DNA of 61,647 bases, taken from the IMG/VR virus record IMGVR_UViG_3300024520_000072, positions 1 to 61,647 of that record, one strand, 5' to 3'. Positions 1 through 58,907 of the stretch are shown here, piece by piece. Position 1 is the stretch's first letter. Every line of letters begins with the position of its first letter. The notes under the pieces were generated by a model. The model was given only the letters and a program-made list of their open reading frames with translations, made no database searches and was not told the origin of the DNA. The position numbers and the translations under genes were made by a program. This stretch comes from a virus.

Positions 1-133
1 CGGCACTTCCGGACAAGGCGGACGGCCTCCCCCAAGTTAGCTCCGACGATGGCGACGTCTCGCGGCGAGCGCCAGGGCGGGCAGACAGACGGCGAGGCTC
101 AGTAGCTCTCCGGGCTCGGGGAGTGGATGCACG
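1..133. repeat. Terminal direct repeat, left copy
   Basis: Positions 8-133 are identical to 61522-61647, and positions 1-7 match 61515-61521 with three mismatches. The repeat falls inside a coding region (the C-terminal part of the PEP-CTERM gene) rather than in a dedicated end sequence. It is best read as the overlap left when a circular or circularly permuted genome was assembled. A genuine short terminal repeat cannot be excluded from sequence alone. Confidence 0.9.
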
Positions 134-714
134 CGAACCTCCCGCGGGCCCACGGCGCTGGCCGTGGCCTGGACGGCGCAGTCTCCATATTGATCTAGGA
201 GGAACACCTCGACGTCCTCCTTGTAGAGTCCGACGGTCCACCCCTCGTCGGCGAGCGGATCGATCCTAAATGTCACGCGCGTCTCCGCGGTCCCGTTGAC
301 CGAGACCGTCCCGTCGTAGAGGTTCAGGAGATCACACTGGAGCACAGTGTCGCAGTGGGAGCAGCCCGCCGGGTAGGTGTATTCCTCGTATGTCGTGCAT
401 CCCGTCGGAGCTTCTGGCGCCTGACCGATTCCGTTGACCGCCTCCAGGGCCATCTGGAACGACGGGAAGGCGGCCGTAGCTGTGACCTGGCAGACGTCCT
501 CCACCCCAGCGAACTCGCCGACGTCTAGATAGAAGTCGACCGTCTCGCCTCGCCTCGGCCGGCCGTGTGCGTAGACGTAGCCGGACACCTCCTCGCACGA
601 TTCGATGGCGTCGTTGCATAGCGACAACGTGTAGGCCGCTCCCCACGCGGGGCCGGCGAGCAATAGCCCCGCAACGATCGCCGTCGCGAGGGTGGTCCAT
701 TTCGGTCCTTTCAT
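37..714 (-). CDS. PEP-CTERM-type secreted surface protein
   Basis: This 225-residue protein has an N-terminal signal peptide (about residues 1-25, ending AWGA). It ends in a classic PEP-CTERM tripartite tail: the motif PEP at residues 199-201, a hydrophobic segment to about residue 218, and the basic end ARRRHRRS. In bacteria such tails are recognised by an exosortase, which cleaves and sorts the protein at the cell surface. The mature part holds eight cysteines (33, 40, 75, 106, 118, 121, 127, 178), which suggests disulfides. The start follows AGGAGAACGAG. The gene spans the circular junction, since its 3' end recurs at the right end of the window, and it lies upstream of the gene at 61017-61457. 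No enzymatic motif is visible. Finding this tail in a phage is unusual. Confidence 0.85.
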   Translation of the reverse strand: MKGPKWTTLATAIVAGLLLAGPAWGAAYTLSLCNDAIESCEEVSGYVYAHGRPRRGETVDFYLDVGEFAGVEDVCQVTATAAFPSFQMALEAVNGIGQAPEAPTGCTTYEEYTYPAGCSHCDTVLQCDLLNLYDGTVSVNGTAETRVTFRIDPLADEGWTVGLYKEDVEVFLLDQYGDCAVQATASAVGPREVRVHPLPEPGELLSLAVCLPALALAARRRHRRS

Positions 715-727
715 CTCGTTCTCCTTT

Positions 728-961
728 TCAGTCGGGATTGATGCCCAGGAGCTTGACCTGAGCCTCTCCGAGCCCGTCGACGTGGACGGTCACAGTGTCA
801 TCCGGGGCGAGCGCGCCCTGGGTGCTCTCCAGGATCATCCCCAGGTGGTGCGTCGCGGCGAGGTCTGCCGCGTTCTCGGCCTCATGGGGGGACATCTCCT
901 CCGTCGGGACCTCGTCCTCCAGGCTCTCGACCTCGAACCAGACGGGGATCGATACTCTCAC
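728..961 (-). CDS. Small acidic hypothetical protein
   Basis: The 77-residue protein starts at a GTG that overlaps the stop of the upstream gene (GTGA), so translation is probably coupled. It is acidic, with clusters of Glu and Asp at residues 11-31, and ends KLLGINPD. I see no signal peptide, membrane segment or known motif. It sits between the PEP-CTERM gene and the 102-residue gene at 958-1266 in one likely operon. The function is unknown. Confidence 0.7.
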   Translation of the reverse strand: MRVSIPVWFEVESLEDEVPTEEMSPHEAENAADLAATHHLGMILESTQGALAPDDTVTVHVDGLGEAQVKLLGINPD

Positions 962-1266
962 GAGGCGATCCGCTGCGCCGTCTCGATGTTGCGGGCGGCC
1001 CGGTCCTCCAGGTCCTCGATCCAGGCCTGGGCCTCGAAGAGGATCTCGCGCATCGAGGCTCCGAAGCGCCAGACGCGGCGGCGGCCTGCCCGGATCCAGA
1101 GCCCCGGACTTGTGCCGGCGAAGTAGAGGATCAGAGAGTTCGCGTCGGCGGCGATCAGCGCGGTGCGGCCGACTGCGATGATCGCGAGCCCGTCTTCTGC
1201 GACGATCTCGACGGGGGAGGCCTGTCTCTCCGTGACGATCTCGACAGGGGCGACTTGCTTCTTCAT
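958..1266 (-). CDS. Hypothetical protein
   Basis: A 102-residue protein with an ATG preceded by the leader GGAGACGCCGCC, which recurs before other genes of this phage. The N-terminal 25 residues hold an imperfect repeat (VAPVEIVTE, ASPVEIVAE). The C-terminal half, with residues such as FEAQAWIEDLEDRAARNIE, looks helical. No family is recognised. It is the first gene of a short cluster with the two genes downstream and overlaps the next one by four bases. Confidence 0.75.
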   Translation of the reverse strand: MKKQVAPVEIVTERQASPVEIVAEDGLAIIAVGRTALIAADANSLILYFAGTSPGLWIRAGRRRVWRFGASMREILFEAQAWIEDLEDRAARNIETAQRIAS

Positions 1267-2113: not shown

Positions 2114-3205
2114 CTAGCGCTTCACGCGCTCCTTCAGTCGCTTGTAGACCAGGGCCTTTCGCTCGGCGCCGGCTCCGACCCAGGAGGACTGGACGGCCTT
2201 CGCGGCCCGCTTGCCCTTCTCGATCTTGCCCTTGACGTGGTCCAGATCGAAGTGGTCGAAGTATTCCGTGAACGCCGCGACCGCGTCATAGAGGGAGTCG
2301 CCCTCGTTCCCGATCCCGCTCTGGAATCGGCCGGTCACGTTCGCGACCTTGTTCTCCATGATCGTCTTCGAGCGGTCCGTGGCCTCCTCGTAGAACTTCG
2401 CCGTCGCCTCTTCGATCTCTTCCGGCGTGCCGTCCAGGCCCAGGAAGATCGAGGTCGCGAAGTCGATGAACTCGCCCGTCGTGATCGCGGACTGGGCCAT
2501 CTCCTGGAGCATGGCTCGGCGCTCTCCGGCCTGGTTGTCGATCTCCCGGATCGCGACGGCGGCGAGTTCGAGGTTCGCCTGGATGTCGCCGCGGTGGGGG
2601 ATCCGGAAGACCAGATTCTGGCCCTCGGCTCGGGAGTCGGCGAAGCCGGCCGTGTTCGCGCAGACCACGGTCACGTCCGTCGCCATGAGGGAGATTCCGA
2701 TGTCCCCGGTGTGGCCCAGCATGGCGAGGAGGAACGCCCGGTGCTCGCTCTCGGCGCCGCTCCGTCGGGTCACGGTCCAGGACGTGGGCGTCTGAGCCAT
2801 GATCCAGACCCGCTTCCCACCTTCCAGGGAGCCGGCCGTGTGGTAGAGGAGCTGGCCGTCCGCCACGAGGCCGTCCAGGAACTCGAAGGCCTGGGCGTTC
2901 TGGAACTCCTCATAGGAGTCCGTGCATCGGCCCAGGACGGCGCCGTCGGTGGAGCGGATCAGGAAGCGCTCACCCACGGCCTCGCGCCAGATCGGGTTAC
3001 CGTCGACGTCCAGGGTGCTCCGGTCCTGGAAGGCGCTCTTCGTCTTCAGGGCCATCCAGTCCAGGCCGCTCACCTTCATCGCGACGTCTGACGAGACGGC
3101 GTTCTCGCCCAGGTCGATCCCGATCGCCTCTCCCTGGATGGAACTACCGTACCACCAGGGCTTCCTGGTTCCGGCGAAGATCATCTTCTCGACGTTGTGG
3201 CTCAT
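2114..3205 (-). CDS. DUF932 phage/plasmid-like protein
   Basis: A 363-residue protein of the DUF932 (TIGR03299) family, common in phages and plasmids and of unknown biochemical role. Supporting features are the opening MSHNVEKM, the tryptophan-containing segment around SGLDWMALKTK, and the conserved central part with TVVCANTAGFADS and FRIPHRGDI. The start was placed at the ATG preceded by GGAGAACGACCCCC rather than at an upstream in-frame codon. A strong copy of the recurrent promoter element lies 50-90 bases upstream, so this gene probably heads a transcript. Confidence 0.85.
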   Translation of the reverse strand: MSHNVEKMIFAGTRKPWWYGSSIQGEAIGIDLGENAVSSDVAMKVSGLDWMALKTKSAFQDRSTLDVDGNPIWREAVGERFLIRSTDGAVLGRCTDSYEEFQNAQAFEFLDGLVADGQLLYHTAGSLEGGKRVWIMAQTPTSWTVTRRSGAESEHRAFLLAMLGHTGDIGISLMATDVTVVCANTAGFADSRAEGQNLVFRIPHRGDIQANLELAAVAIREIDNQAGERRAMLQEMAQSAITTGEFIDFATSIFLGLDGTPEEIEEATAKFYEEATDRSKTIMENKVANVTGRFQSGIGNEGDSLYDAVAAFTEYFDHFDLDHVKGKIEKGKRAAKAVQSSWVGAGAERKALVYKRLKERVKR

Positions 3206-3253
3206 GGGGGTCGTTCTCCTATCGGGGGCGGGATGCCCCTCGCTGCTGGGGAT

Positions 3254-3293
3254 CGTATCGGCCGCCCGCTGGAGGGCTTGAGACTTTTCTTCG
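3254..3293 (-). promoter_or_regulatory. Recurrent early-type promoter element, copy 1
   Basis: The minus strand reads GAAGAAAAGTCTCAAG, then 17 bases, then GATACG. CTCAAG and GATACG are spaced exactly like -35 and -10 boxes. The same arrangement occurs at 5898-5946, 6963-6997 and 7410-7446, with weaker relatives at 5047-5081 and 13296-13330. Each lies just upstream of a minus-strand gene. It probably drives the DUF932 gene. Confidence 0.6.
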
Positions 3294-3333
3294 TCCTGGG
3301 GAGTGGCCCAGGGCATCTAGAAGGTGACGATCT

Positions 3334-21195: not shown

Positions 21196-21693
21196 CTAGA
21201 GGTCGATCCAGAGAAGCTCGATCCCGGCGTCCGTCGGCGTCGCGCCCTGGTTCTCCCACTGGACGAGGTAGTCCCCGGCGGCGAGGATCCAGCCGTAGGT
21301 CTCCAGCTCCAGAGGGTCGAGGGCGTTGTAACGATGTCCGGCGTTCGAGAAGAACTTCGCGAGCTTCGTCCCGTCGGCCACGACGGTCGGGGTGTGGAAC
21401 ACGATGGCGGACGAGGTGATCGAGTCGACCCGGTTCCGGGCCACGACCGTTAGAGGCGTCCCGTCGGCCACGGGATCGTCCGGGGTGGGGCCGTCGTAGA
21501 GGGCGCCGTAGAAGTCCCCGTCCCCGGAGAAGGCGAAACCGAGGAGGATCCCGGCGCCCGCTGCCACTCGGACCAGAAGCTCGATCTGTGCCGGCGAGGC
21601 GCCGACGGCCTCGTCCTCGTGGGTGACGGAGAAGACGCGGCCAGCATCGAGGGCGGCGGCGTAGCTGTATTTCGAGAAGGCGCTAGCAGGCAT
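21196..21693 (-). CDS. Structural or accessory virion protein, paralog B
   Basis: A 165-residue beta-rich protein, clearly a paralog of its upstream neighbour (21705-22205). Both share the alternation LLVRVAAGA, a middle segment like VVARNRV, FFSN followed by GQR or GHR, GWIL and GDYL, and the ending IxWIDL. The content looks like a small jelly-roll or fibre domain. It is the last gene of the late operon, after the lysis genes. No enzymatic motif is visible. Confidence 0.75.
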   Translation of the reverse strand: MPASAFSKYSYAAALDAGRVFSVTHEDEAVGASPAQIELLVRVAAGAGILLGFAFSGDGDFYGALYDGPTPDDPVADGTPLTVVARNRVDSITSSAIVFHTPTVVADGTKLAKFFSNAGHRYNALDPLELETYGWILAAGDYLVQWENQGATPTDAGIELLWIDL

Positions 21694-21704
21694 GGCCCAC
21701 CCTC

Positions 21705-22205
21705 CTAGAGGTCGATCCAGATCATCTCGATCGTCGCGTCCGTGACGCCGGCCGAGTGGTTATCGAACTGGAGGAGGTAGTCGCCGGGGTCCAGGATCCA
21801 GCCCCGCTTCTCGATGTCCAGGCCGTCGACCCCGTTGACCCGCTGGCCGTTGTTCGAGAAGAACCTCCGGAGCTTCGTCCCGTCGTCCGAGACCGTCGGG
21901 CCGTCGAAGGCGAGCGTCGTCGAGGTGTTCGTGGAGATGCGGTTCCGGTTCAGGACAGCAATAGCCGCGCCGTCCGCGCCCGTCGTCGGGTCGGCGTAGA
22001 AGCCCGCCCAGCAGTCCGCCCCGCCGCTGATCGCGAAGGCGAACCGGATCGCCGCCCCGGCCGCCACACGGAGGAGGACCTCCTGCTGGCCCGGCCCGCC
22101 GTTCTCGGCCGGGACGTCGTCGACGTCGAGAGTGGCGGAGAAGGCCTGGCCATCCCGGATCGCCGTTGCGTAGCTGAAGGGGTCGATGATTGACTGGCCG
22201 CTCAT
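21705..22205 (-). CDS. Structural or accessory virion protein, paralog A
   Basis: A 166-residue beta-rich protein starting MSGQSIIDPFSYATAIRDGQ, paralogous along its whole length to 21196-21693. The two genes are separated by 11 bases, so a tandem duplication is likely. The last codons are nearly identical in DNA as well. A decoration or fibre role is inferred from composition only. Confidence 0.75.
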   Translation of the reverse strand: MSGQSIIDPFSYATAIRDGQAFSATLDVDDVPAENGGPGQQEVLLRVAAGAAIRFAFAISGGADCWAGFYADPTTGADGAAIAVLNRNRISTNTSTTLAFDGPTVSDDGTKLRRFFSNNGQRVNGVDGLDIEKRGWILDPGDYLLQFDNHSAGVTDATIEMIWIDL

Positions 22206-22247: not shown

Positions 22248-22484
22248 CTATCGCCCGCCCCGTAGCGCCTCGATGTACGCCGAGTAGGACATGCACTCCC
22301 AGCCGAACTCGGCCAGCGGCGTCCCGTCCTCTCGGGCGGCCTGTTCCTCAGTCGCCTCGTCCATGATCGGCGGCCTCTGTAGCACTCCGAAGCTCGGCGG
22401 CGCGGGCTTCGCGCATCCGACGAGCGCGAGCGCGGCGACCGACGAGAGTCTTAGGAGGGTGGTCCAGGTGGATCTTCGCTGCAT
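22248..22484 (-). CDS. Outer-membrane spanin-like lipoprotein (Rz1-like)
   Basis: A 78-residue protein with a lipoprotein signal: a basic start, a hydrophobic core and a lipobox LVGC with Cys at residue 24, followed by a Pro-rich stretch (KPAPPSFG). The start lies inside the upstream gene in a different frame (overlap 22348-22484), the nested arrangement known for Rz/Rz1 spanins. Together the pair would fuse inner and outer membranes at lysis. The position after the endolysin supports this. Confidence 0.65.
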   Translation of the reverse strand: MQRRSTWTTLLRLSSVAALALVGCAKPAPPSFGVLQRPPIMDEATEEQAAREDGTPLAEFGWECMSYSAYIEALRGGR

Positions 22485-22623
22485 CGTTGGCCTCTTGGTT
22501 CGCTTCGAGCGTGTCGGTCCGGTGCTCTGCGACGGCCTGGGCGCTCTTCGCCCTGACGAGCCTCCGGATCAAGAGACCCACCAGGGCGAAGAGTCCGCCG
22601 AGTGCTGCGAGTAGGGCTTTCAC
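22348..22623 (-). CDS. Inner-membrane spanin-like protein (Rz-like)
   Basis: A 91-residue protein starting at GTG (overlapping the upstream stop). Residues 3-19 form one membrane segment (ALLAALGGLFALVGLLI) and the rest is a charged helical tail (RTDTLEANQEANDAAKIHL). The Rz1-like gene is nested in its 3' half. It is short for an i-spanin but fits by topology and context. Confidence 0.6.
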   Translation of the reverse strand: MKALLAALGGLFALVGLLIRRLVRAKSAQAVAEHRTDTLEANQEANDAAKIHLDHPPKTLVGRRARARRMREARAAELRSATEAADHGRGD

Positions 22624-22961
22624 TCGGGCGGCGCGGGCGGAGGAGTATCTCCGGCCGCACACATGGGGCCGAGCAGGTCGCCGACCTTCGGGATCAGACA
22701 GATCCCGCCCAGGATGTTGATCGTCGCGTTGCCGCACGCCACGACGCCGCCCCCGTAGCCCACCTCGAAGTCGACGAAGTCGGCGGCATTGAGCCCGATC
22801 GCGGGAGGCCACGCAAAGCGGACCACCTTGGCGTCCAGCGCGGTATCGAAGGAACAGTCCGCGGCGTAGGCTGGGCTGGCGGCCAGCACGAGCCCGCCGA
22901 GCACGAGTAGCAGGACAGCGCCCCTGACGATCGTCCCTCTGAGAGCCTCTGAGAGCTTCAT
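22620..22961 (-). CDS. Secreted protein of the lysis region
   Basis: A 113-residue protein with a clear signal peptide (residues 1-34, ending AYAA) and a mature part of about 80 residues with four Cys (CSFDT, ACGN, GICL, MCAAG) and many Gly. It ends in a Pro-rich tail. It is coupled to both neighbours by overlaps. Periplasmic, possibly disulfide-bonded. The function is unknown. Confidence 0.7.
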   Translation of the reverse strand: MKLSEALRGTIVRGAVLLLVLGGLVLAASPAYAADCSFDTALDAKVVRFAWPPAIGLNAADFVDFEVGYGGGVVACGNATINILGGICLIPKVGDLLGPMCAAGDTPPPAPPE

Positions 22962-23260
22962 GGATTCCCCCTCCTCTGGCAGTCCTGGACGTCGCGCTCC
23001 AGGTCTGCGATCACGAGAGCCAGATGGCTCACGACTGAAGCCGGGATTCTATCATCCCGGGCCGCCTCTGCCTCCAGGGCTCGGAATGTGCGGTCCTCCA
23101 GGTCGTCGGAGACGGCCTCCCTGGCGCGTCCCATCGCGGCCAGGAAGGTCGCCTCCTCCCCCCGGTACTCTCCCCCCAGAAAGGCGCCGAGAGGGACTGC
23201 CAGGGCCAGCGCGATCTTCAGGACCAGGCGGACCCACTCGGGCGCCGGCCCGAGGCTCAC
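22958..23260 (-). CDS. Membrane-anchored coiled-coil protein of the lysis cassette
   Basis: A 100-residue protein starting at a GTG that overlaps the endolysin stop (GTGA). One membrane segment (residues 11-28, VLKIALALAVPLGAFLGG) is followed by a long charged helix. It could be a second i-spanin-like protein or a pinholin-type membrane factor. The nested pair downstream is the better spanin candidate. Confidence 0.65.
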   Translation of the reverse strand: MSLGPAPEWVRLVLKIALALAVPLGAFLGGEYRGEEATFLAAMGRAREAVSDDLEDRTFRALEAEAARDDRIPASVVSHLALVIADLERDVQDCQRRGNP

Positions 23261-23655
23261 GGATCGAGTTCCGCATGGATGTGGACGTTCCACTCCTTCC
23301 CGTGACACGAGACGTCATAGTTCACGCCCTGGCGCGCGAGCAGGTCGACCCTCATCCTGGCGGCCCAGGCCTCGCCGATCGTCCGGCGATCCTCCAGGAC
23401 GTCCGTCGTCCCCCAGAGCGAGATGTCGAAGGCGTTGTTCCGCTCGTGGGCGTCCAGGGTGTCCCGGATCTTCCGCCAGCCCTCCGAGACTATGACCTCC
23501 GTCATACCGTGAGGGGCGGTCCGGAGCGCGGACTGGACGATGCACCAGACCTCGGGGCGTGTATTGCCCTCGGTCAGAATGCAGCCCCGGCGAGCCTTCT
23601 CGGAGCTGTCCTTCCAGTCGGCCTTTATGATGAGCCGCGGGCCCTTGTAGCCCAT
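23257..23655 (-). CDS. Endolysin, M15-type peptidase
   Basis: A 132-residue zinc peptidase of the M15 (VanY/L-Ala-D-Glu peptidase) type, which cuts the peptide part of the cell wall. The zinc site is made by DAHERNNAFDIS (H70, D77) and the C-terminal NVHIHAELD (H125 and H127), the usual His/Asp/His set. Length is typical of single-domain phage endolysins. It has no signal peptide, so it depends on a holin. The candidate holin lies immediately upstream. Confidence 0.8.
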   Translation of the reverse strand: MGYKGPRLIIKADWKDSSEKARRGCILTEGNTRPEVWCIVQSALRTAPHGMTEVIVSEGWRKIRDTLDAHERNNAFDISLWGTTDVLEDRRTIGEAWAARMRVDLLARQGVNYDVSCHGKEWNVHIHAELDP

Positions 23656-23658
23656 CTC

Positions 23659-24087
23659 TCAGTGTCCTCCGGGTGGCTGCGAGACCGTCCCGAGCCACTC
23701 CCAGACGCGCTGCAAGATGGCCCAGAGCCCGACCGCTCCTGCCGCGCTCGCTCCGCCGACGACGGCCGTCTGACTTGGGGTCGCCCCATGAGCGCTCCCG
23801 GCGATCTCCATCTTCTCGTGGGCCGCGAGGTCGTCCCGGACGCCGTCGATCTTGTGGTGCGTCCCGTCCAGCCGGTCGTCCACGACATCGAAGCGGCGGT
23901 TCGTCTCGGTCTCCTGGGCGGCCTGCCTCTCGTGGCCTTGCGTGAGCCCACGGGCTACCTCGATCCGGAGCGCGCTCGTAGCCTCAGCGCTGCCTCGGAT
24001 CATCTTCTTCGCTTCATCCAGGGACTCCCCGAAGTGGCTCATCGTTGACTCGATCTTGCCGAGTGTCCGCTCGATCTCCTCGCTCAT
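23659..24087 (-). CDS. Holin-like coiled-coil membrane protein
   Basis: A 142-residue protein. Residues 1-100 are helical (coiled-coil-like, ending RFDVVDDRLDGTHHKIDGVR). A Gly/Ala-rich hydrophobic segment (VVGGASAAGAVGLWAIL) near residues 113-130 is the only membrane span. The layout resembles XhlA/hemolysin-type holin partners. The start overlaps the stop of the PEP-CTERM gene by ATGA and is preceded by GGAGAACCGG. It sits directly ahead of the endolysin. Confidence 0.6.
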   Translation of the reverse strand: MSEEIERTLGKIESTMSHFGESLDEAKKMIRGSAEATSALRIEVARGLTQGHERQAAQETETNRRFDVVDDRLDGTHHKIDGVRDDLAAHEKMEIAGSAHGATPSQTAVVGGASAAGAVGLWAILQRVWEWLGTVSQPPGGH

Positions 24088-24614
24088 CCGGTTCTCCGTC
24101 GTCGTCTCAGGTGGAGGATCGTCAGTAGCAATAGGCCGGCAGATAGTAGCCGGCCCTGGGCGGGCTCGGGGACGTGGATCAGTGGAGGGGGTGGGTTGAG
24201 GCAGTTGCCGATCAGGATCGGAGCACTCCACGAGGAGCGATCTCGATGGAGAGGTCCCCCGTCGTGTTTGTGGGGAGGGTCCAGGGTAGCGGCCTGGACT
24301 CGGGAACACCCGGGAGCGTCGAGGAGCGTCGCCTCGGCGTAGACCTCGTCCGTGGAGTAGCCGTGGCGCGCGGCGCGGTCCATCTCGTCCTGGGTGAGTC
24401 CGGACAGCGCCTTCGACGGCGCCCACTGGAACCAGTCCCAGTTCTGAGGCGAGGAGCGGAGGGCCAGATCGCGAGCGGCGCCGTTCGGTAGGGAGGCCTT
24501 GAGGGGGTCTGCCCAGAGGACCCGGCTCGCACCCTGCCAGGGATCGGCGAACGCGATCCGGGCGGCGGCGAGCGTCACCAGGAACACGAAGCCGCCCACT
24601 GAGATCCGTTGCAT
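24084..24614 (-). CDS. Second PEP-CTERM-type secreted protein
   Basis: A 176-residue protein with an N-terminal signal peptide (to about residue 23, AFA-DP). It ends in a PEP-CTERM tail: VPEP at 148-151, a hydrophobic segment (LLSAGLLLLTILHL), and then a run of Arg. The mature part is Trp-rich near the start, with QNWDWFQWAP and GLTQDEMDRAARHGYSTDEV, and two Cys. No catalytic motif is seen. It lies at the head of the lysis cassette, right after the receptor-binding protein gene. The host exosortase would be needed for sorting. Confidence 0.8.
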   Translation of the reverse strand: MQRISVGGFVFLVTLAAARIAFADPWQGASRVLWADPLKASLPNGAARDLALRSSPQNWDWFQWAPSKALSGLTQDEMDRAARHGYSTDEVYAEATLLDAPGCSRVQAATLDPPHKHDGGPLHRDRSSWSAPILIGNCLNPPPPLIHVPEPAQGRLLSAGLLLLTILHLRRRRRTG

Positions 24615-24631: not shown

Positions 24632-26308
24632 CTACCAGACCTTCACGATCGACATATTGCCGAAGACGTCCCTCGTCCCGGTCGAGTCCTGGTAGGCCAC
24701 GCCACGCACGATCTGTCCGACGGCCAGCTCGATCCCGAGAGTGACGTGGACGATGGTATCCGAGTTCGTTGTGGGGTGAGGGTCGTTCTGGCCGAGCCCC
24801 CCGGACTCGATCGTCCCGTCGATACTGATCGCGATAGCGCGGTTGACCCCGCCGTTCGGCGTCCCGGTTCCTGAGTCTTCGTCGAAGAGGACGTTCAGCC
24901 CGATTTCGTACCAGCCAGCGCCGCCCGCTGGCACGGTGAAGCGGTCCGGGTTGGCCCCGCCGACGTCGATCATCCCGCCGATATCGGTGACCTCGGTCTC
25001 CCAGTCGATGTCTGTCGCGGTGTCGTGCGCGATATTGAAGCCCGTCGTCACAGTGGCCCGCGCTCTCGCCTGAGTCGCAGAGCTGACGAGCTGGGTCGCG
25101 CCGATCTCCACAGCGTCGATCTCGTTGGTCACGAGCGAGAGCTGGTCGACTCCAGGGGATCTCATCCCAGAGGTCGGGTCGGTCTGGAAGGAATAGACCG
25201 GGTTTGTCTCCGTCCCGTCCGCCGCTCGGAGCTGTTCTGGCTGCGCCGCCCCGCCGTGGGCACGGACCACATGGACGCCGCCTGCCGTGAGGGCGACCTC
25301 GTCAGCCGCTGGCCAGTAGACCCCGGTATTCGGGTCTCCGATGGGAGCGATCGATGGGAGCGGGGCGGTCCCGGCCGGGAAGAGGATCCTCAGGCTCGAC
25401 GGCTCCAGGCCCGCCAGGATCTCGTCAAGCTGTTCGAGCCGATCGTGGAGCCCGTCGAAGTCCGAGAAGAGGAAGTGGCCGCCCGTGACCTTGATCCCTG
25501 TACTCGGTCCCTCGTCGGCGAACGACCCCCCGGTGACCGTCATCACGAGCGCCGAGAGGCCCGTGAGCGTATAGGGCCCATCGTTCAGCTCTGAGTCGTC
25601 GACCTGGATGTCCTGGCCGTTCACGAAGCCGTCGGCCGTCCAGTCGCCCACGGTCCTCTCCAGCGTGTCGGAGCCGTTGCCGTCGATGAACTCGATCGAG
25701 TCGGTCCCGTCGAACCACGGGGTCGTCCCGCGCCGGACTCGGCTCCGCTCGTAGTCGTCGCCGTCCCAGAAGACGGGAGCGAGCCGGGTCGGGTTCGAGA
25801 GCACCGAGCCCGAGTCGATGTCGAAGTGCCAGAGGTCGACGATCGACGGGAGCACAGAGGCCGTGTCCACGAGTGTCGGGATGCCCTGGGTGTTGACGTT
25901 GAGGAAGCGCTCCAGCGTGTCCCCGCCTCCAGCGTAGGTCGCCGTCAGGACGGCCGCCGTCGCCGGGGCGACTCGGACGCCTTGGACCAGCGCGGACCCT
26001 GTCGCGACGTCGATCCGGTTGTCGTTCGGGGCGTCCTGGATGGTCGGGAAGTAGGAGTGAACCCCGATCAAGCCGCCATTGACGTGGATCGTGTATCGAT
26101 CGTATTGGAGCAGGTCGAGTGGGAGGACGGATCCGGGCCCCTGGATGTTGTTGATCTCCAGGGTGTGGAGGTTCACGGTATTGAAGAGCGTCAGGAGCGT
26201 CGCGTCGAGGTCGTCTCCGTAGGTGTAGTAGCTCGCCGAGGTCACGGCGCCCTGGCCCGACGCGAAGGCGACGTAGTAGTTGTTTCCGATGACCATCGTC
26301 TGAGCCAT
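24632..26308 (-). CDS. Tail fibre or receptor-binding protein
   Basis: A 558-residue beta-rich structural protein. The middle (about residues 210-280) has a module with TLERTVGDWTADGFVNGQDI and NDGPYTLTGLSALVMTV, which recurs in the protein at 26321-27055. A short helical link (LHDRLEQLDEILAGLEPSS) follows. The last 150 residues look like a C1q/TNF-type jelly-roll (WYEIGLNVLFDEDSGTG, ending SIVKVW), a common receptor-binding tip. It is the last tail gene before lysis, the usual place for a tail fibre. Confidence 0.7.
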   Translation of the reverse strand: MAQTMVIGNNYYVAFASGQGAVTSASYYTYGDDLDATLLTLFNTVNLHTLEINNIQGPGSVLPLDLLQYDRYTIHVNGGLIGVHSYFPTIQDAPNDNRIDVATGSALVQGVRVAPATAAVLTATYAGGGDTLERFLNVNTQGIPTLVDTASVLPSIVDLWHFDIDSGSVLSNPTRLAPVFWDGDDYERSRVRRGTTPWFDGTDSIEFIDGNGSDTLERTVGDWTADGFVNGQDIQVDDSELNDGPYTLTGLSALVMTVTGGSFADEGPSTGIKVTGGHFLFSDFDGLHDRLEQLDEILAGLEPSSLRILFPAGTAPLPSIAPIGDPNTGVYWPAADEVALTAGGVHVVRAHGGAAQPEQLRAADGTETNPVYSFQTDPTSGMRSPGVDQLSLVTNEIDAVEIGATQLVSSATQARARATVTTGFNIAHDTATDIDWETEVTDIGGMIDVGGANPDRFTVPAGGAGWYEIGLNVLFDEDSGTGTPNGGVNRAIAISIDGTIESGGLGQNDPHPTTNSDTIVHVTLGIELAVGQIVRGVAYQDSTGTRDVFGNMSIVKVW

Positions 26309-32770: not shown

Positions 32771-34885
32771 CTATGCGAGAAGGGCTGAACTCTGCGAGAG
32801 GGTCTCGGCTGCACTCTCGCCGACCGAGCCTCCGGCCGCCACTCCGCCAGAGATCGAGCGGATCGCGTCCAGGATGAGGGCCTGGAATTCGTTGTTGACG
32901 TCGAGCTTCCCCTCCGTCCCGACCAGGGCGGCCTCCAGGGTCTGTCCGACCTGGAAAATGGGGAGCGAGCTGTCCCCGGCGATGACGCCGCGCTGAGCCT
33001 CCGCCTGGGTGGCGTTCGCGGCCGAGCGGACCAGGGAGTTCGTCACGTCCGCCTCCGTGTCCCGGAGCGCGCCAGGGAGGATCGACATAGCGGCCCCCAG
33101 GCCGGCCGTCCAGCCCCTCCCGAGACTTTTCCCGAGTTCTCCACCCAGGAGCCCGTCCTTCCCGAGGATCCCCTTCTCGCCGCCCAGAAGTTCCTTGAAT
33201 TGCTTCCCGAGGGTATTCATGACGTCGTCCATGGAGTCCTTCAGGAGCTGCCCGGCCGTGTCCGCGAGTAGCTCCATCATGTCGAAGCCCTCGCCCGTGA
33301 TGGCGGCACGGAGCCCGCCTCCGATCGCGTCCTCCAGGCTGTCGCTCAGGGTCTCGCCGAGCTTCCTGGCCGTCGCGTTCGTCTTCGCGTCCGCCTTCTC
33401 CTGGGCCTCCGTCTGCGCCTTCTGGACGAGGAGGATCTCCTCCTGGATCTTCTTGACGCCGTCGAGGGCGGCCTCCACGTTGCCGGCGGCCTGGGCCGTC
33501 GCGATCAGCTCGTTCGCCTGCTGGCCGAGGAGGAAGATCTCGGCCTCGTATTTGTCCTTTCGTCGCAGCGCCGAGAGATTGATCTTCTCGTTCAGCTCCA
33601 GGAGCTTCTCGGCCGCCTTCGCCTGGGCCTCGATCGCCTCGCGACTCTCGCCCACTGGTAGGTCGACCTTCGTGTCCACTTTCGGAGCGGCGGATCCGAT
33701 GGCGCCGCCAGCGATGACCCCGGCCGCGCGCTGTTTGATGCTGTCGAGGGTGGACTCGAACTTCGCCGCCTCTTCCTCCCCGAGACGGAACTCGTCAGCG
33801 AGGCCGCCGACCGTCACCTGGAGGGCAGAGAGTTCCGCCCGAGCTTCGCCGATGCGTCCGGTGAGATTTTCGACCAGCGGCTGGTCGCCTCTGCCCTCGG
33901 CGGCCCTCCGCATACTCTCCAAGCGCTCGACGTGGCCCCTCGCCCTGCTCAGCTCCTCCTCGCCGATGATCCCCTGGAAGACAGTCCCCACTCCCCGGAG
34001 CTTGTTCAGGACTCGGAGCGCCTCTACGGCCGCCAGGGTGAGGAGGCCGAATAGCTGGATCGCGACGTTCAGCCCGTCGCGAGCGAAGTCCGTGATCGCG
34101 TCCTCGTTCTCCTCGATGATCTTCTGGAGATCGCCCAGGAAGGGGAGCAGGACATCCCGTAGGGAGTTGATGACCGGGCCGCGGAAGGCGTCGCCGAGGG
34201 CCTTCGAGACGTTCGTCGTAGCGTCGCCCACGTTCGAGAGAGCGCCGCCGAGCGTCTTCGAGAGGTCTTCGGCGGCCTTCCCGAAGGTCCCTCCGGCCCC
34301 GAAGGTCTGCGCGAAGGCGACCTCCAGCTCCGCCATCGAGAGCTTCGTGGCGTCCGGGATCCCGGCGATCGACTCGATCAGAGCCTTGACGCCGCGCTCG
34401 CGGAAGAGATCCGCCGAGGCGATACCAGCCGCCAGAGAGCGCTGGAGGTTACCTGCCGCGTCCTGGAACGAGAGCCCGGTCACGGCCGCCAGGTTCGCGG
34501 CCGTCTCGGTCAGCTCCTCCAGGCGCTCTCGGTTCCCGAGCGCGGCCGAGGCCAGTGTCGACGCTCCCTCGACGATCTCGGAGACCGCGAACGGCGTCTT
34601 CGAGGCGAGCTTCGTGAAGGTTTCGAGGGCCTTGTTCGCCTCCCGCTGGTCCCCCAGGAGCCCGGCCAGCCGAACGCCATACTGCTCGAAGGCGGCGGAG
34701 GTATCGATCGCGGCCTTCGCGACACCCAGGAATCCCCGGATCCCGGCCAGGATCCCGAGCGCTGCGACGAGGCCGAGGATCTTCTTCCGCACGGAGCCCG
34801 AGGTCTTCCCGACTCGCTTGATCGACGACGAGGTGGCCTTCCCGCCCTTCTCTGTGATGACGATTTCGACGATCTCTCGCGCCAT
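32771..34885 (-). CDS. Tail tape measure protein
   Basis: A 704-residue helical protein that sets tail length. It has an N-terminal hydrophobic segment (ILGLVAALGILAGIRGFLG), the typical FEQYGVRLAGLLGD and FAVSEIVEGASTLASAALGN tape-measure core, and long coiled coils in the second half. By the usual rule of about 0.15 nm per residue it predicts a tail near 100 nm. It sits downstream of the tail chaperones G/GT, as expected, with two small genes between. Confidence 0.85.
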   Translation of the reverse strand: MAREIVEIVITEKGGKATSSSIKRVGKTSGSVRKKILGLVAALGILAGIRGFLGVAKAAIDTSAAFEQYGVRLAGLLGDQREANKALETFTKLASKTPFAVSEIVEGASTLASAALGNRERLEELTETAANLAAVTGLSFQDAAGNLQRSLAAGIASADLFRERGVKALIESIAGIPDATKLSMAELEVAFAQTFGAGGTFGKAAEDLSKTLGGALSNVGDATTNVSKALGDAFRGPVINSLRDVLLPFLGDLQKIIEENEDAITDFARDGLNVAIQLFGLLTLAAVEALRVLNKLRGVGTVFQGIIGEEELSRARGHVERLESMRRAAEGRGDQPLVENLTGRIGEARAELSALQVTVGGLADEFRLGEEEAAKFESTLDSIKQRAAGVIAGGAIGSAAPKVDTKVDLPVGESREAIEAQAKAAEKLLELNEKINLSALRRKDKYEAEIFLLGQQANELIATAQAAGNVEAALDGVKKIQEEILLVQKAQTEAQEKADAKTNATARKLGETLSDSLEDAIGGGLRAAITGEGFDMMELLADTAGQLLKDSMDDVMNTLGKQFKELLGGEKGILGKDGLLGGELGKSLGRGWTAGLGAAMSILPGALRDTEADVTNSLVRSAANATQAEAQRGVIAGDSSLPIFQVGQTLEAALVGTEGKLDVNNEFQALILDAIRSISGGVAAGGSVGESAAETLSQSSALLA

Positions 34886-39074: not shown

Positions 39075-39512
39075 TCAATCGGCCACGAAGGAGAAGACGA
39101 AGGAGCCGACGCGCGAGGTGTCGGCGGCGGCCGTGAAGTCGACGGTCGCCCGTTCGTTCGTGGTGTCGCCCGAGATGAGCCCGACGTCCCCGTTCGCGTC
39201 GACATAGGCCCCATGGACTTCAGTCGCGGCGGCCACGTTCGCGATAGCGTGCCCGGTCGGGAAGTCGATCCCGAACTCGGTCGCGGCGGCCAGGGTCGGG
39301 TCGACCGTCACGCGACCCGAGACGATCACGACGTCGTCGATCCGCTTGAAGTGGCAGACCCCGACGATCACGGAGGTACAGTTCGTCACGGCGGTCATCG
39401 CGAGCGCCTCTGCCCCTCCGACGTCCTTCGCTACCGAGGCGGCGTCCTGGGCGTCGTCGATCGCGGTCTGATAGATCAGATGTCTCGCGGGGCTGATATT
39501 GTGGATCGCCAT
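39075..39512 (-). CDS. Virion protein, paralog of the next gene (copy 2)
   Basis: A 145-residue protein starting MAIHNISPARHLIYQTAIDD, a full-length paralog of 39532-39972. Both have DAQDAAS, AKDVGG, VGVCHF followed by RIDD or RVDD, FPTGH, ANVAAATEVHG, GDVG, NERA, FTAAAD and end FxFSxVAD. The last segments are also similar in DNA. It lies just after the major capsid gene, which suggests a head decoration or fibre protein. Confidence 0.75.
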   Translation of the reverse strand: MAIHNISPARHLIYQTAIDDAQDAASVAKDVGGAEALAMTAVTNCTSVIVGVCHFKRIDDVVIVSGRVTVDPTLAAATEFGIDFPTGHAIANVAAATEVHGAYVDANGDVGLISGDTTNERATVDFTAAADTSRVGSFVFSFVAD

Positions 39513-39531
39513 GTGGGCCTGCCTCCCTGAC

Positions 39532-39972
39532 TCAGTCGGCCACGTAGGAGAACGTGAAGTATCCGACGCGCGACGCATCGGCCGCCGCCGTGAAGATGCA
39601 CTCCGCCCGCTCGTTCGATGCGTCGCCGTCGATGACCCCGACGTCCCCGGCTGCGTCCACGTAGGTCCCGTGGACCTCTGTGGCCGCCGCGACGTTCGCG
39701 ATCCCGTGGCCAGTGGGGAAGGCGATCCCGAAGGTCGTCGCCCCAGCCCCCGATGTGTCGACCGTTGCCGCCCCGGAGACAGTCACGGTATCGTCAACGC
39801 GCTGAAAGTGGCAGACGCCGACGATCGTGATCGTGTCGATGTTCCCGACGTCCGTCAGGGCGAGAGCTTCACTACCCCCGACATCCTTCGCGGCGGACGC
39901 TGCGTCCTGGGCGGCGTCGATGGCGTCCTGGGCGGCCCTGTGCTTCGCCGGGTTGAGATTGTGGAGCGCCAT
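39532..39972 (-). CDS. Virion protein, paralog of the previous gene (copy 1)
   Basis: A 146-residue protein starting MALHNLNPAKHRAAQDAIDA, paralogous to 39075-39512. The short N-terminal helical region followed by a beta-rich domain fits a small decoration protein. It is the first gene downstream of the major capsid gene and has a hairpin-like sequence upstream. No known family is certain. Confidence 0.75.
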   Translation of the reverse strand: MALHNLNPAKHRAAQDAIDAAQDAASAAKDVGGSEALALTDVGNIDTITIVGVCHFQRVDDTVTVSGAATVDTSGAGATTFGIAFPTGHGIANVAAATEVHGTYVDAAGDVGVIDGDASNERAECIFTAAADASRVGYFTFSYVAD

Positions 39973-40053: not shown

Positions 40054-41085
40054 CTACTGGACGATTGCTCCGAAGAAGTAGCCGAGGTCTGCCGAGACCA
40101 GCTTGAGGTCGTCACATGACTCGATCTCGACCCGGTCCGCCTTCTTGAGCGGGACGCGCTGCCGAAGGATCCGACTCCCGTCATCCGTCGCGCCGAGGTG
40201 ACCCGTCCAGGAGAACGTGTAGCCGGCGGCCGGCGTCATCCGACCCGGGACAGGCGGGCTATAGCTGAGGAGCGCGTTATTCGACGCGATGAAGGTGTGG
40301 ACGTTCGTCGCCCCCTTCTCGGCCGTGTTCTTGATCGCGTCCATGACGTGGATCTGATTCACCTCGAAGAGCGCGGCCAGCGCCTCCCGGTTCACGAGTG
40401 CCGTCGAGACGGTCTGCCCTCGATCGATCCGGCCCACGATGTCGGGGTGGTCGAGAAGGATGTCGTAGACCGTCCGGGCCAGGGTGAGCTGATTCGGCCG
40501 GAACCCGGTGATCGACTGGACGTAGCGCTTGCCCTGCCGGATGTCCTCAATCGGCGTCGAGGCCGCCAGGTTCCAGTACAGCTTGTCGTTATTCCCGGCG
40601 CTCGTCGGGTCGAAGGACCCAGCGGCCGTCGCGGTCGTGGCGCCGTCGACGTCGAAGGTCCAGGTATCGCCAGGAGCGCCGGCCGTGAAGTAGTCCGTCA
40701 CCCACCGGATCTCGCGGTTGATGAGGTGCTTCAGCGTGACGTAGCGCGTCGCCTCGCTGTCCTGGTCGAGCGGGTCGTCCTGGTTGTCCCGGACCTCGTC
40801 CGCGATGTCCTTGTGGAAGGCCCTGAGATTGCAGAAGTAGGTGGCCTGGTCGATCTCGTAGCCACCCCCAGCCGACTCGGTCGCCGGACCCCGGAGCTGC
40901 ATCTCGTCACGGTTGAAATCGCCGTGATCGTAGGTGAAGTAGATGTTCGAGCGCTTGTCGCTCGGGATGAGCGGGAAGACCTTCCCCGCGACGAAGCTGT
41001 CGTCCTCCTGGATGAAAGCGCTGGAGACGGCCCCGAGCGGCGTGTTGACGTGGACGTCGGATCGCGACGGCTCGATGAACGGCAT
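40054..41085 (-). CDS. Major capsid protein
   Basis: A 343-residue protein starting MPFIEPSRSDVHVNTPLGAV. The pattern (AGKVFPLIPSDKRSNIYFTY with RDEMQLRGPATESAGGGYEI, later FRPNQLTLARTVYDILLDHPDI) fits HK97-fold coat proteins of the Mu-like/E-like type, and the order after protease, scaffold and cement genes is correct. It has a good start and its neighbours are head genes. The length is normal. Confidence 0.82.
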   Translation of the reverse strand: MPFIEPSRSDVHVNTPLGAVSSAFIQEDDSFVAGKVFPLIPSDKRSNIYFTYDHGDFNRDEMQLRGPATESAGGGYEIDQATYFCNLRAFHKDIADEVRDNQDDPLDQDSEATRYVTLKHLINREIRWVTDYFTAGAPGDTWTFDVDGATTATAAGSFDPTSAGNNDKLYWNLAASTPIEDIRQGKRYVQSITGFRPNQLTLARTVYDILLDHPDIVGRIDRGQTVSTALVNREALAALFEVNQIHVMDAIKNTAEKGATNVHTFIASNNALLSYSPPVPGRMTPAAGYTFSWTGHLGATDDGSRILRQRVPLKKADRVEIESCDDLKLVSADLGYFFGAIVQ

Positions 41086-41185: not shown

Positions 41186-41569
41186 CTATGCGCTGTCGCT
41201 GTTGACGGTCCTAACGCTCATGACGATCGGAACGATGTCTCCCGAGATTCCGCCCACCAGAAGGGGACCGACGACCAGATCGCCTCCGATGACCGACGCG
41301 GTGTCGCCGACGCCATCCGTTCCGGCTGAGACCATCAGCCCGCCGGAGATCGTCGCGCCCAGCTCGATTAGACCGACCGAGCCGTCGAAGATGGCGATCG
41401 GAAACTCCCCACCAGACGCCACGGACTCGGCAGCGATTCCCGACGCCAGATCGGTCGGGTCGTCAGTCTTGTCCCACGTCTGGTCGGACTGGGGATCGAC
41501 GAACCGATAGATCACGATCGCCTCACCTGCGAGGCCCGTGATGTTCTCCGTCGCTTCCGAATACGCCAT
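41186..41569 (-). CDS. Capsid cement-like protein, paralog 2 (DUF2190-like)
   Basis: A 127-residue protein starting MAYSEATENITGLAGEAIVI. It fits DUF2190-like capsid cement proteins: GEAIVIYRFVDP, a beta-rich body, and conserved VGLIELGATISGGLMVSAGT. Proteins of this type decorate and stabilise the head. It is a full-length paralog of 41647-42027 (shared QSDQTWD, FPIAxF, GLIELGATI, VGPLLVGG, RTVN). Confidence 0.75.
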   Translation of the reverse strand: MAYSEATENITGLAGEAIVIYRFVDPQSDQTWDKTDDPTDLASGIAAESVASGGEFPIAIFDGSVGLIELGATISGGLMVSAGTDGVGDTASVIGGDLVVGPLLVGGISGDIVPIVMSVRTVNSDSA

Positions 41570-41646
41570 GCCTGGTCTCCCTCTCGGGCAAGTTGCAAAT
41601 CTGGTCGTTCGCGGCCTGGTCGCGCTCCGCCCTTATCTCACGGACT

Positions 41647-42027
41647 CTACGTATCCTCGTTCACGGTCCTGGCGATCATCATAATCGGGACGATCTCTCC
41701 CGAGTCTCCGCCGACCAGGAGAGGGCCGACAAGCAACTCACCCCCCGAGGTCGAGGCGGCCGCCGCTACCCCGTTCGTTCCGGCGGAGACCATGACCGCA
41801 GCCGCGATCGTCGCGCCAAGCTCGATCAGACCGATTGCCCCGTTGAACGTGGCGATCGGGAATTCCACACCGGAGGCCACGGCCTCGGCGGAGATGCCTC
41901 CGACCAGATCGGCCGGGACGTCGGCCATGTCCCACGTCTGGTCGGACTGAGGGTTGACGAAGCGATAGATCGCCATCGTCTCGCCGGCGACGCCCGTGAT
42001 GTTCTTGGTCCCTACGGAATACGCCAT
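41647..42027 (-). CDS. Capsid cement-like protein, paralog 1 (DUF2190-like)
   Basis: A 126-residue protein starting MAYSVGTKNITGVAGETMAI, paralogous to 41186-41569. The duplication includes the leader: both genes are preceded by a ribosome site within GGGAGACCAG and by a related stretch with GCAACTCG/GCAACTTG and CGAACGACCA. Two cement variants on one head are implied if both are expressed. Confidence 0.75.
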   Translation of the reverse strand: MAYSVGTKNITGVAGETMAIYRFVNPQSDQTWDMADVPADLVGGISAEAVASGVEFPIATFNGAIGLIELGATIAAAVMVSAGTNGVAAAASTSGGELLVGPLLVGGDSGEIVPIMMIARTVNEDT

Positions 42028-48580: not shown

Positions 48581-49987
48581 CTACTCGTCGGGCTCTGGTT
48601 CTGGCGGCGGTTCCGGAGGCAGTAGGTCGTCCAGCTCGTCCTCGCCGCCACCTCGTCCTGAGGCGTCCACCTCGTCCTCCTCTGGAGCGTCCGGGAGCCC
48701 CATGAGGGAGCGGACCACGTTGATCGCCGGATCGTCCGGGCCGAGTGGGGCGCCGGCCGTCGCGAGGTCTCCCAGGGCCGCCGTGAGTTGTTCGACATCG
48801 CGGAATTGCATCTCCTCCGGGGTGAGCGTCGGCCACAGATCTCGGGCGATCCCGTTGAGAGTGCAGATCGTCTCCACGAGGTCGGTCTGGTATGCCTGGG
48901 CCAGCTCGGTCAGCGCGGAGTCGATCACGACGGCGAGCTGGTGAGACTTGTCCCTGGCCAGCGCGAGGGAACCGACGTTCGCCCCTCCCAGGAGGATCCC
49001 CTCGGTCCCGAAGAGCCTGGCGATCTCTCTCTGGAGCCGCTCGACCGCGGCCGCAATCGCCTGGAGGCTCATGGATCCGCTTCCCGTCAGTAGCTCGACG
49101 TCCCACAGAGGGACGCCGCTCGGCGCTTTGGTCTCGCCCTGGTCGCGGTAGGTCGCGGAGTCGAGCATGACCCCGGTCTCCACTGAACGGATGTGCTGAG
49201 TCACGAAGTCCGTCAGAGGCTGGAGGATCGCGACCCGCTCGGCCTCCGTGATCTTCTTGATCCGCTTCATCTCGTCGAGGACGCCGTAGGGCGCTCGCGC
49301 CTTCGGGACACCCTGGAGGTCGGTCTCGAAGCCGACCGTCTCCAGTTGCTGGTAGCGCTGGAGGCGTGTCGCGGTCTCCGTGAGCTGCCGCGCGATGCCC
49401 AGGCCCTCTGGAGAGTCCGAGAGGGAGTCGTCGACCACGTAGGCGATCTTGGTCCTCGGCAGGTAGGCGAGCTTCTGGGTCGCCGGCATGAGCTGGACGA
49501 CGCCCACGACATGACCGGAGTCGTCGGTGTCCCAGCGCTCGATCGTGTGGGCCGGCCTGGCCTCGACATCGAGGAGGCCGATCTTCCCGTCGTCCCGCTT
49601 CTTCGCCGTCCACTCCTGGATCCCGAAGCCCCAATAGCGATACATGAGCCCGCGGCGGACGACCTGAGCCCAGGGCGTCCTCATGTCGCGGAGGACGTCG
49701 TCGACGAACTCGGCGGTCTCCACGGCGGCGGGCGTCTCGTCAGCGGCCTCCAGCGTCCACTTCGCCGACTGTCCGAGGTTCAGGTAGTAGCGGACCGAGG
49801 CCGCCACGACGTCGACGTTCACGAGATGGTCGGAGAAGGTCTTCCAGCGCGCGGTCCCTTGGACCTTGGCGTTCGTCTCATTGCGCTCGATGAAGCCCGA
49901 GAGGACGACGGTCCCGGAGGATCCGACTGTCTCGGTCGGACGGACCCGGCGGCGTAGCCGGCCGAGCCCGAAGAGTCCGTTCGCCAT
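48581..49987 (-). CDS. Portal protein, DUF935 (Mu gp29-like)
   Basis: A 468-residue portal protein. It has KTFSDHLVNVDVVAASVRYY, WGFGIQEW, EARPAHTIERWD and SDSPEGLGIARQLTE, the order of conserved segments in DUF935 portals. The C-terminal 60 residues are acidic and disordered. Portal subunits form the dodecameric channel through which DNA enters the head. It abuts the terminase gene. Confidence 0.88.
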   Translation of the reverse strand: MANGLFGLGRLRRRVRPTETVGSSGTVVLSGFIERNETNAKVQGTARWKTFSDHLVNVDVVAASVRYYLNLGQSAKWTLEAADETPAAVETAEFVDDVLRDMRTPWAQVVRRGLMYRYWGFGIQEWTAKKRDDGKIGLLDVEARPAHTIERWDTDDSGHVVGVVQLMPATQKLAYLPRTKIAYVVDDSLSDSPEGLGIARQLTETATRLQRYQQLETVGFETDLQGVPKARAPYGVLDEMKRIKKITEAERVAILQPLTDFVTQHIRSVETGVMLDSATYRDQGETKAPSGVPLWDVELLTGSGSMSLQAIAAAVERLQREIARLFGTEGILLGGANVGSLALARDKSHQLAVVIDSALTELAQAYQTDLVETICTLNGIARDLWPTLTPEEMQFRDVEQLTAALGDLATAGAPLGPDDPAINVVRSLMGLPDAPEEDEVDASGRGGGEDELDDLLPPEPPPEPEPDE

Positions 49988-56242: not shown

Positions 56243-57220
56243 CTACACCTCGACGCCGAAGAGATCAGACTGGCCAGGATCTCGCTCGACTCTCTGCTCC
56301 ATGGCCGCCGTCACATTGCGAATCGCCTGATCGTAGTAGGTCTTCTTCAGCTCGATCCCCACTCCGCGGCGGTTCTGATCCACAGCCCCGTAGACCTCGG
56401 AGCCTACGCCCATGAACGGAGTGAGGACCGTCTCCCCGGGATTGCTCCACAGAATCACGCATCGCTCGATCACGTCGAGCTGGAGCGGGTGAATGTGCCG
56501 CTCGTCGTCCTCTTCTCTCGATTGCTTGAATGGAAGGACGCGCGCGACGCGGACATCATCCCAGAATGCCGAGGCGTACTGCCTCCAGATCCAGTGCGAG
56601 TAGCGGTTCTCGGTCTGATTGCCTTTCCATCCCCGGTATCGGATCAGATCGGTAGGGATGAGGCGCTCTCCAGCATACTCCGTCAGTCCGTTCGGGTGAG
56701 CGATCGGGACCGGGTTGTCTCCTGGCTTGCGGAACACGAGAAGGAAGTCCGCACTCGCCACGCTGCATCTCGACGAGTCGACGACGATGGTCTTGTGGGC
56801 GAGGTTCTTCGCCATCGTGCGATTCCGGACCGCGAGAGGCTCTTTCCAGATGCAGTAGCGAGCCACGTACTTGAAGCCCGCATCGATATGTGCCCGGATG
56901 ACATCCCCGGAGAAGTCGACGAGGTGATCCCTTCCTGTGTTCCCGGATCGGATGTCTGTCGTGTGGACGCACGTCACGCGGCCTGGCATCGTCAGCCGAT
57001 GCAGCTCGCTCAGCACGTAGCCATAATGCTCGAAGAATTCATCGTAGCCGCGACAGTTCGACAGATCGCGCTCGCTCGACGAGTAGCTATATAGCCCCGC
57101 GAAAGGCGGCGAGTAGACGGACAGGTGGACGCTGCCATCGGGCCAGGTCGGCATGACCTCGCAGCAGTCGCCATGGTAGAGCGCGTAGTCGTCTGTGATT
57201 TCTTGGCTCGCTACAGCCAT
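56243..57220 (-). CDS. DNA methyltransferase (beta-class, SPPF type)
   Basis: A 325-residue site-specific DNA modification enzyme. The catalytic motif YSPPF (residues 36-40) and the S-adenosylmethionine motif TPFMGVGSEVYGAV near residue 275 are in the beta-class order. SPPY/F is common among N4-cytosine enzymes, while N6-adenine enzymes usually have DPPY, so cytosine N4 is more likely. It overlaps the helicase gene by 10 bases, which suggests joint action. Confidence 0.82.
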   Translation of the reverse strand: MAVASQEITDDYALYHGDCCEVMPTWPDGSVHLSVYSPPFAGLYSYSSSERDLSNCRGYDEFFEHYGYVLSELHRLTMPGRVTCVHTTDIRSGNTGRDHLVDFSGDVIRAHIDAGFKYVARYCIWKEPLAVRNRTMAKNLAHKTIVVDSSRCSVASADFLLVFRKPGDNPVPIAHPNGLTEYAGERLIPTDLIRYRGWKGNQTENRYSHWIWRQYASAFWDDVRVARVLPFKQSREEDDERHIHPLQLDVIERCVILWSNPGETVLTPFMGVGSEVYGAVDQNRRGVGIELKKTYYDQAIRNVTAAMEQRVERDPGQSDLFGVEV

Positions 57221-58575: not shown

Positions 58576-58637
58576 GGGTCGGCGGTCTCCTCTGGGTGTC
58601 GTGGTGGGTGGCCCGGGATCTGGCGGAGGTGTCAGAA

Positions 58638-58907
58638 TCAGATTTGCTTTCGGCGTAGCTTGGAGAAAAGAGCCCGCAGCCTCGGCCGCCAGACGTGGAC
58701 GTCCCGCTCGCAGGAGAGCCACACTGGGGGCTGGTTCTCCCCCTGGACGTGGAGCCACACTCGGCCGAAGAGGAGCGCTGAGAGCCTCTCACGGGGGCTC
58801 ATGGTCCAGAGCGAGACGAGCTGGAAGCCGTCGTTCTGGGTGTGGAGATCGGCGCCGCCCGAGAGGGTCCAGACCTGATTCGTCTCGGGGAAGGTGGAGG
58901 GCTTCAT
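58638..58907 (-). CDS. Small Trp-rich hypothetical protein
   Basis: An 89-residue protein starting MKPSTFPETNQVWTLSGGAD, with a basic, Trp-rich C-terminal half (FGRVWLHVQGENQPPVWLSC). The start overlaps the upstream stop by four bases. It may be a small nucleic-acid-binding protein, but no motif supports a function. Confidence 0.65.
   Translation of the reverse strand: MKPSTFPETNQVWTLSGGADLHTQNDGFQLVSLWTMSPRERLSALLFGRVWLHVQGENQPPVWLSCERDVHVWRPRLRALFSKLRRKQI

Follow-up and report, generated by a model that had tools for sequence, protein, structure and literature searches.

Results

A predicted secreted protein with a PEP-CTERM-type tail at the contig edge

The window analysed here is the whole of IMG/VR virus record IMGVR_UViG_3300024520_000072 (61,647 nt). 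On its minus strand, at 37..714 (ATG at 714, stop codon at 37-39), lies the gene for a predicted secreted, Cys-rich protein of 225 residues with a PEP-CTERM-type C-terminus, here called protein A. Inspection and hydropathy place a signal peptide at residues 1-25 (640..714, minus strand), with an n-region (MKGPKW), a hydrophobic core (TTLATAIVAGLLLAG) and a cleavage-like PAWG/AA; by hydropathy and the -3/-1 rule the N-terminus, MKGPKWTTLATAIVAGLLLAGPAWG/AAYT, is a signal peptide of the Sec type. The mature part contains eight Cys residues (33, 40, 75, 106, 118, 121, 127 and 179). The C-terminus, HPLPEPGELLSLAVCLPALALAARRRHRRS, has LPEP at 198-201 as part of LPEPGE, the PEP motif itself being residues 199-201 (112..120, minus strand). 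There follow 15 hydrophobic residues (204-218; 61..105, minus strand), as found by hydropathy, and an Arg-rich end read from the sequence, RRRHRRS (219-225; 40..60, minus strand). Hydropathy gave only two hydrophobic segments in A, one per terminus, and no other transmembrane segment. All the elements that an earlier note had listed for 37-714 (signal peptide, Cys-rich mature part, PEP, hydrophobic span and Arg-rich end) were therefore read in A, on the minus strand. Single-sequence AlphaFold2 gave a low-confidence model with a helix at 201-224; at a pLDDT of 39, this model is useless for fold searches.

A very probably closes a phage operon, because the stop codon of the gene upstream, a strong Shine-Dalgarno sequence and the start codon of A all fall within 19 nt (TGAAAAGGAGAACGAGATG). 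The upstream gene (728..964, minus strand) is small, ends 13 nt before A and likely shares a transcription unit with it. The Shine-Dalgarno sequence (AAGGAG; 721..726, minus strand) lies at the end of this gene, 6 nt before the ATG. The gene order leading into A is a DUF932 gene (2114-3316), 1359-1853, 958-1266, 728-964 and A, and the codon use of A is in line with that of other phage genes. The DUF932-type protein (2114-3316, minus strand) has relatives, 54-58% identical, in five viral contigs, and no homologue of A was found in the neighbourhoods of these relatives. Homologues of A were likewise absent from INPHARED, from plasmids and, by pattern scan, from GTDB genomes. Candidate relatives in viral contigs (L001-L003) were rejected as chance matches: their common part with A was only HPLPEPGE, within a large unrelated helicase-like protein.

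A second protein of this kind in the late region

Translation of the late region revealed a second predicted secreted protein with a PEP-CTERM-type C-terminus, protein B (176 residues, HVPEPAQGRLLSAGLLLLTILHLRRRRRTG; 24084..24614, minus strand). Its signal peptide, assigned by inspection and hydropathy, covers residues 1-23 (MQRISVGGFVFLVTLAAARIAFA; 24546..24614, minus strand), its PEP motif residues 149-151 (24162..24170, minus strand), and its hydrophobic segment (156-169, from sequence and hydropathy) runs into a RRRRRTG end (24087..24149, minus strand). B follows the final gene of the tail/structural operon (24632..26308, minus strand) at a distance of 17 bp; that gene has weak PHROG matches to virion structural and tail fiber proteins. 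B also stands just before a region that by inspection looks lysis-like (22248..24090, minus strand). This region encodes a coiled-coil/TM protein, a peptidase-like endolysin (23257-23655), a short TM protein and a short protein with a lipobox (LVGC; 22248-22484) that resembles an outer-membrane spanin; none of these genes at 22248-24090 had a significant family match.

The only relative of B that was found is an identical gene in IMGVR_UViG_3300024518_003916. This contig (45,816 bp) is 99.8-100% identical to window positions 7598-53413; it spans B and stops short of A.

The contig is a phage

The terminase large subunit (49991-52618, minus strand), portal (48581-49987), major capsid (40054-41085) and tail genes, including the tape measure (32771-34885), mark the contig as a genuine phage. 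It also carries RecE/RecT-like and primase/helicase genes. The capsid protein is 60% identical to those of Roseobacter phages RDJL Phi 1/2 and 47% identical to those of Pseudomonas phages KPP23/RSP; more distantly, it matches Rhizobium, Vibrio, Klebsiella and Arthrobacter phages. The capsid relatives are mostly from phages of Gram-negative bacteria, yet Arthrobacter and Brevibacillus phages are also among them; the gene at 22248-22484 is, by inspection, spanin-like with a lipobox. A search of GTDB with the capsid protein found no host. No integrase or resolvase was found on the contig in a search with positive controls, which makes a virulent life style likely and a role of A and B in the lytic cycle likelier.

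Three further features of the contig are recorded here. Some 330 extra residues with a LAGLIDADG domain are inserted in the terminase large subunit; a relative (L030/G008) lacks this insertion, which is probably an intein with a homing endonuclease. The structural region contains three adjacent pairs of paralogous genes (21196-22205, 39075-39972 and 41186-42027; proteins ~48%, 64-69% and 68% identical, respectively), which suggests that virion surface genes have repeatedly been duplicated in tandem. Finally, a stretch with DNA methyltransferase and helicase genes (56243-58758, minus strand) has a GC content of 0.61, compared to 0.66, and is possibly a recent acquisition.

PEP-CTERM model matches to A and B depend on the PEP motif

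PEP-CTERM proteins have a near-invariant Pro-Glu-Pro near the C-terminus, a hydrophobic helix of ~14 residues and ~5 basic residues, together with a signal peptide at the N-terminus and no further transmembrane segments (Haft 2006, PMC1569441). Their hosts have EpsH/exosortase in the genome, an outer membrane and exopolysaccharide genes (PMC1569441). The sequence features of that description are present in A (PEP at 199-201 of 225 residues, helix 204-218, RRRHRR end, signal peptide) and in B (PEP at 149-151 of 176 residues, helix 156-169, RRRRR end, signal peptide). As whole proteins, neither passed a curated PEP-CTERM cut-off. TIGR02595 gave A 8.5 bits for the whole protein and 15.1 bits for its last 38 residues, short of the cut-off of 16; NF038129 matched with an E-value of 4.4e-4 and several further PEP-CTERM families matched weakly, while Pfam, PF07589 included, gave no match to A. 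For B, PF07589 gave 15.5 bits (E 0.019), under its cut-off of 20.7, and TIGR02595 gave 12.2 bits for the whole protein and 17.1 bits for the tail (cut-off 16). These matches depended on the motif. Changing PEP to GAG in A, or reversing its tail, abolished every PEP-CTERM model match, and replacing PEP in B removed its PEP-CTERM matches and left only a weak MYXO-CTERM score. We therefore describe A as PEP-CTERM-like: its sequence features are those of the class, but the curated score is not reached. A model search of this kind had been proposed in the earlier note as a check on A, and it came out half as anticipated, with matches to several models and scores below the curated cut-offs.

In a search of 3,707 ORF ends with a profile built solely from 14 non-redundant PEP-CTERM tails of other phages, A ranked first with 15.3 bits (E 0.0017), ahead of the runner-up at 7.7 bits. 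With the same profile B reached only 5.0 bits (E 2.8, high bias), so the case for B rests on the Pfam and NCBIfam models and on its architecture. A 29-residue consensus tail found nothing in INPHARED, a result made uninformative by low-complexity masking, and a second consensus, closer to A, gave no confirmed match. The mature parts of both proteins matched nothing and hence do not indicate a function.

Could the tails belong to a C-terminal sorting system other than exosortase, such as LPXTG/sortase, MYXO-CTERM/myxosortase or another? The LPEPG of A resembles LPXTG but lacks its Thr, and A matched neither the LPXTG model (TIGR01167) nor the MYXO-CTERM models at E<=10; TIGR01167 did not match B at E<=10 either. 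The tail of B does have a weak MYXO-CTERM score (15.7 bits, or 13.0 bits without PEP; cut-off 20). However, the definition of MYXO-CTERM includes a motif Cys (PMC11980579), no such Cys precedes the helix here, and a helix straight after PEP is the PEP-CTERM layout (PMC1569441). We consider a different sorting system very improbable.

The architecture is rare by chance

An architecture rule (PEP, 14 hydrophobic residues, at least 3 K/R and a signal peptide) selected two of the 598 ORFs in the window, A and B, compared to none in 29 other viral loci with 2,958 ORFs in all. When 11 control tripeptides were put in place of PEP, about 39,000 tests gave two tail matches, neither of them with a signal peptide. 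The sole background tail match was the end of an ORF in L005 (12478-12870, plus strand; YLPEPYFGSGIAIAVALLLSVNPLKRVYRQQKRMSTQEI), which may or may not be a gene and also has no signal peptide. Several control genomes gave weak PF07589 matches (E<=1), and weak Pfam scores alone were therefore not trusted.

PEP-CTERM proteins recur in other phages

The earlier note had also proposed a search of phage databases for similar tails, and such tails are indeed there. Scanned with a generic, self-written PEP-CTERM consensus, IMG/VR yielded 23 records, and a variant consensus added one more, giving at least 24 other phage records with PEP-CTERM proteins. The PF07589 cut-off was passed in all 23 records tested (31 matches overall, two in each of 8 records); one protein, in L051, was below the TIGR02595 cut-off (12.9 bits) and above that of PF07589 (31 bits). 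Thirty ORFs in these loci passed the tail rule, and 28 of them passed the signal peptide rule as well. Grouped without their tails, the 24 proteins fell into nine unrelated families, with A and B in none of them.

The neighbours of these genes include terminase, head morphogenesis and capsid genes (L032), portal, capsid and amidase genes (L035), terminase (L033, L034, L045 and L047), tail fibre and baseplate genes (L041), primase, helicase or polymerase genes (L033, L034, L042, L048 and L051), and also lysis genes. Such phage hallmark neighbours identify them as phage genes rather than host flanks. Eight of the phage records (G021, G022, G028, G029, G035, G036, G038 and G040) have two PEP-CTERM genes each; in most of them the pair lies within some 1 kb and resembles a small cassette. 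L032 (IMGVR_UViG_3300024518_005273) is an unrelated phage contig whose PEP-CTERM gene lies just upstream of the capsid gene; it comes from metagenome 3300024518, as does the identical copy of the window phage, which hints at PEP-CTERM biology in that community.

These loci bear on whether A and B are simply passive cargo, that is, newly captured bacterial PEP-CTERM genes that do nothing for the phage, or, in the case of A, a piece of host DNA misassembled onto the contig. The stop codon of A is 36 bp from the contig end, the single overlapping contig (3300024518_003916) does not cover it, and A has no relatives among 18 related phage records. The codon scores per residue of A and B are both below those of most phage genes. 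Against this, the operon of A includes a small phage gene, A has a tight ribosome-binding site, B lies inside the late region and is also present in the second contig, and nine families recur within phage gene blocks. Capture or misassembly could account for A alone, but not for B or the other phages, and as a general explanation it seems improbable to us.

A search for exosortase (PF09721) found none in 24 records, the window included, while the control search found one in Methanocaldococcus; sorting would therefore need the machinery of the host. The same absence, together with the sub-threshold model scores of A and B and the position of B beside lysis-like genes, would also suit proteins that are periplasmic and tail-anchored in the inner membrane. 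In such proteins the PEP would be incidental, no exosortase would take part, and they would act inside the envelope, for example as a Sie-like block of injection or in lysis timing. This account is harder to square with the PEP dependence of the model matches, with two such proteins in one phage, and with the control motifs, which at the place of PEP never came with a signal peptide. We regard it as unlikely, though the strongest of the alternatives.

Discussion

The data above support the central claim of the earlier note, that this phage encodes a PEP-CTERM protein, through the architecture of A, its PEP-dependent matches, the second protein B and the 24 other phage records; formal membership of A by curated cut-offs did not hold. 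The functions that the note had suggested for it, a block of superinfection, a change of the envelope or a part in attachment, are conjectural. On balance, we think that A and B are probably secreted proteins sorted by a host exosortase that alter the surface of the infected cell.

Both proteins are like bacterial exosortase (EpsH) substrates in their signal peptide, Pro-Glu-Pro, helix of 14-15 residues, Arg-rich end and little homology in the mature part. They differ in being phage-encoded, in scoring under the curated cut-offs and in having no exosortase beside them. In addition, bacterial PEP-CTERM genes mostly stand alone (PMC1569441), whereas A is in an operon with phage genes. The PEP-CTERM proteins of other IMG/VR phages (L031-L053, L061) share the architecture and the setting inside phage gene blocks, but have unrelated mature parts and canonical VPEP tails above the cut-off, and belong to other phage lineages.

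Llp (T5) and Cor (T1, N15 and phi80) are small envelope proteins of phages that act in superinfection exclusion by blocking adsorption of the same phage. The gene for Llp follows that for pb5 in T5 (PMC9586334), and the Cor locus follows the tail fibre gene (PMC13164509). B similarly comes directly after a tail gene (17 bp), while A is placed elsewhere. Llp and Cor, however, are lipoproteins: they carry a lipobox, and their receptor is known. In contrast, A and B have an ordinary signal peptide, whose cleavage site lacks a Cys, and a predicted sorting signal at the C-terminus. A further parallel is SasX, a prophage-encoded LPXTG surface protein (phi-SPbeta-like; listed in PMC6048232), which is also phage-borne and anchored by a host sorting enzyme, as predicted for A and B. 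SasX depends on a Gram-positive sortase and lysogenic conversion, whereas the phage described here has a Gram-negative-type signal and no integrase.

How might A and B work? Both would be exported by the host Sec system, and the C-terminal helix would then hold them in the inner membrane with the Arg-rich end in the cytoplasm. The host's own exosortase would cut at or near PEP, and the proteins would be moved to the outer surface or the exopolysaccharide layer during lytic infection. Sorting by a host exosortase is, in our view, fairly probable, whereas for a role at the surface the chances look about even. The likeliest benefit of an altered surface would be superinfection exclusion or receptor masking, the latter keeping progeny from being wasted on debris and on cells that are already infected. 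Small envelope proteins for superinfection exclusion are a feature of many lytic phages. By analogy with these, and as B follows a tail gene, we favour this role among the possible ones, while rating it as rather doubtful in itself. In Zoogloea, floc formation requires PEP-CTERM proteins, and loss of their regulators sets exopolysaccharide free as soluble material (PMC9012009); a PEP-CTERM protein from a phage could therefore mask receptors or loosen the matrix.

The component parts of this picture are already known, and a search of 5.39 million open papers found no earlier description of phage-encoded PEP-CTERM proteins. Within that literature the use of PEP-CTERM by phages appears new, although a generic PEP-CTERM annotation may well exist in some phage record.

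What do these findings mean for phages and their hosts? The same C-terminal label on at least nine unrelated families of phage proteins suggests that phages repeatedly borrow a host surface-display route. More tentatively, and at somewhat less than even odds in our judgement, phages of exosortase-bearing bacteria may form a recurrent class with fast-changing PEP-CTERM effectors, often two per genome. These would take over the exosortase of the host and use it to cover or remodel the infected-cell surface and exopolysaccharide, with exclusion of other phages or altered biofilm release among the possible benefits. Beyond biofilm and floc formation, little is known of what the exosortase/PEP-CTERM system does, and if these proposals are true, phage genes would supply small, testable exosortase substrates. 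A PEP-CTERM gene on a phage contig would also have a practical use, as a hint of an exosortase-bearing host. Phage-borne LPXTG surface proteins would then have an equivalent in Gram-negative bacteria, and superinfection exclusion a possible new route. If phages do repeatedly encode exosortase substrates, the PEP-CTERM surface layer would be a battleground between phage and host.
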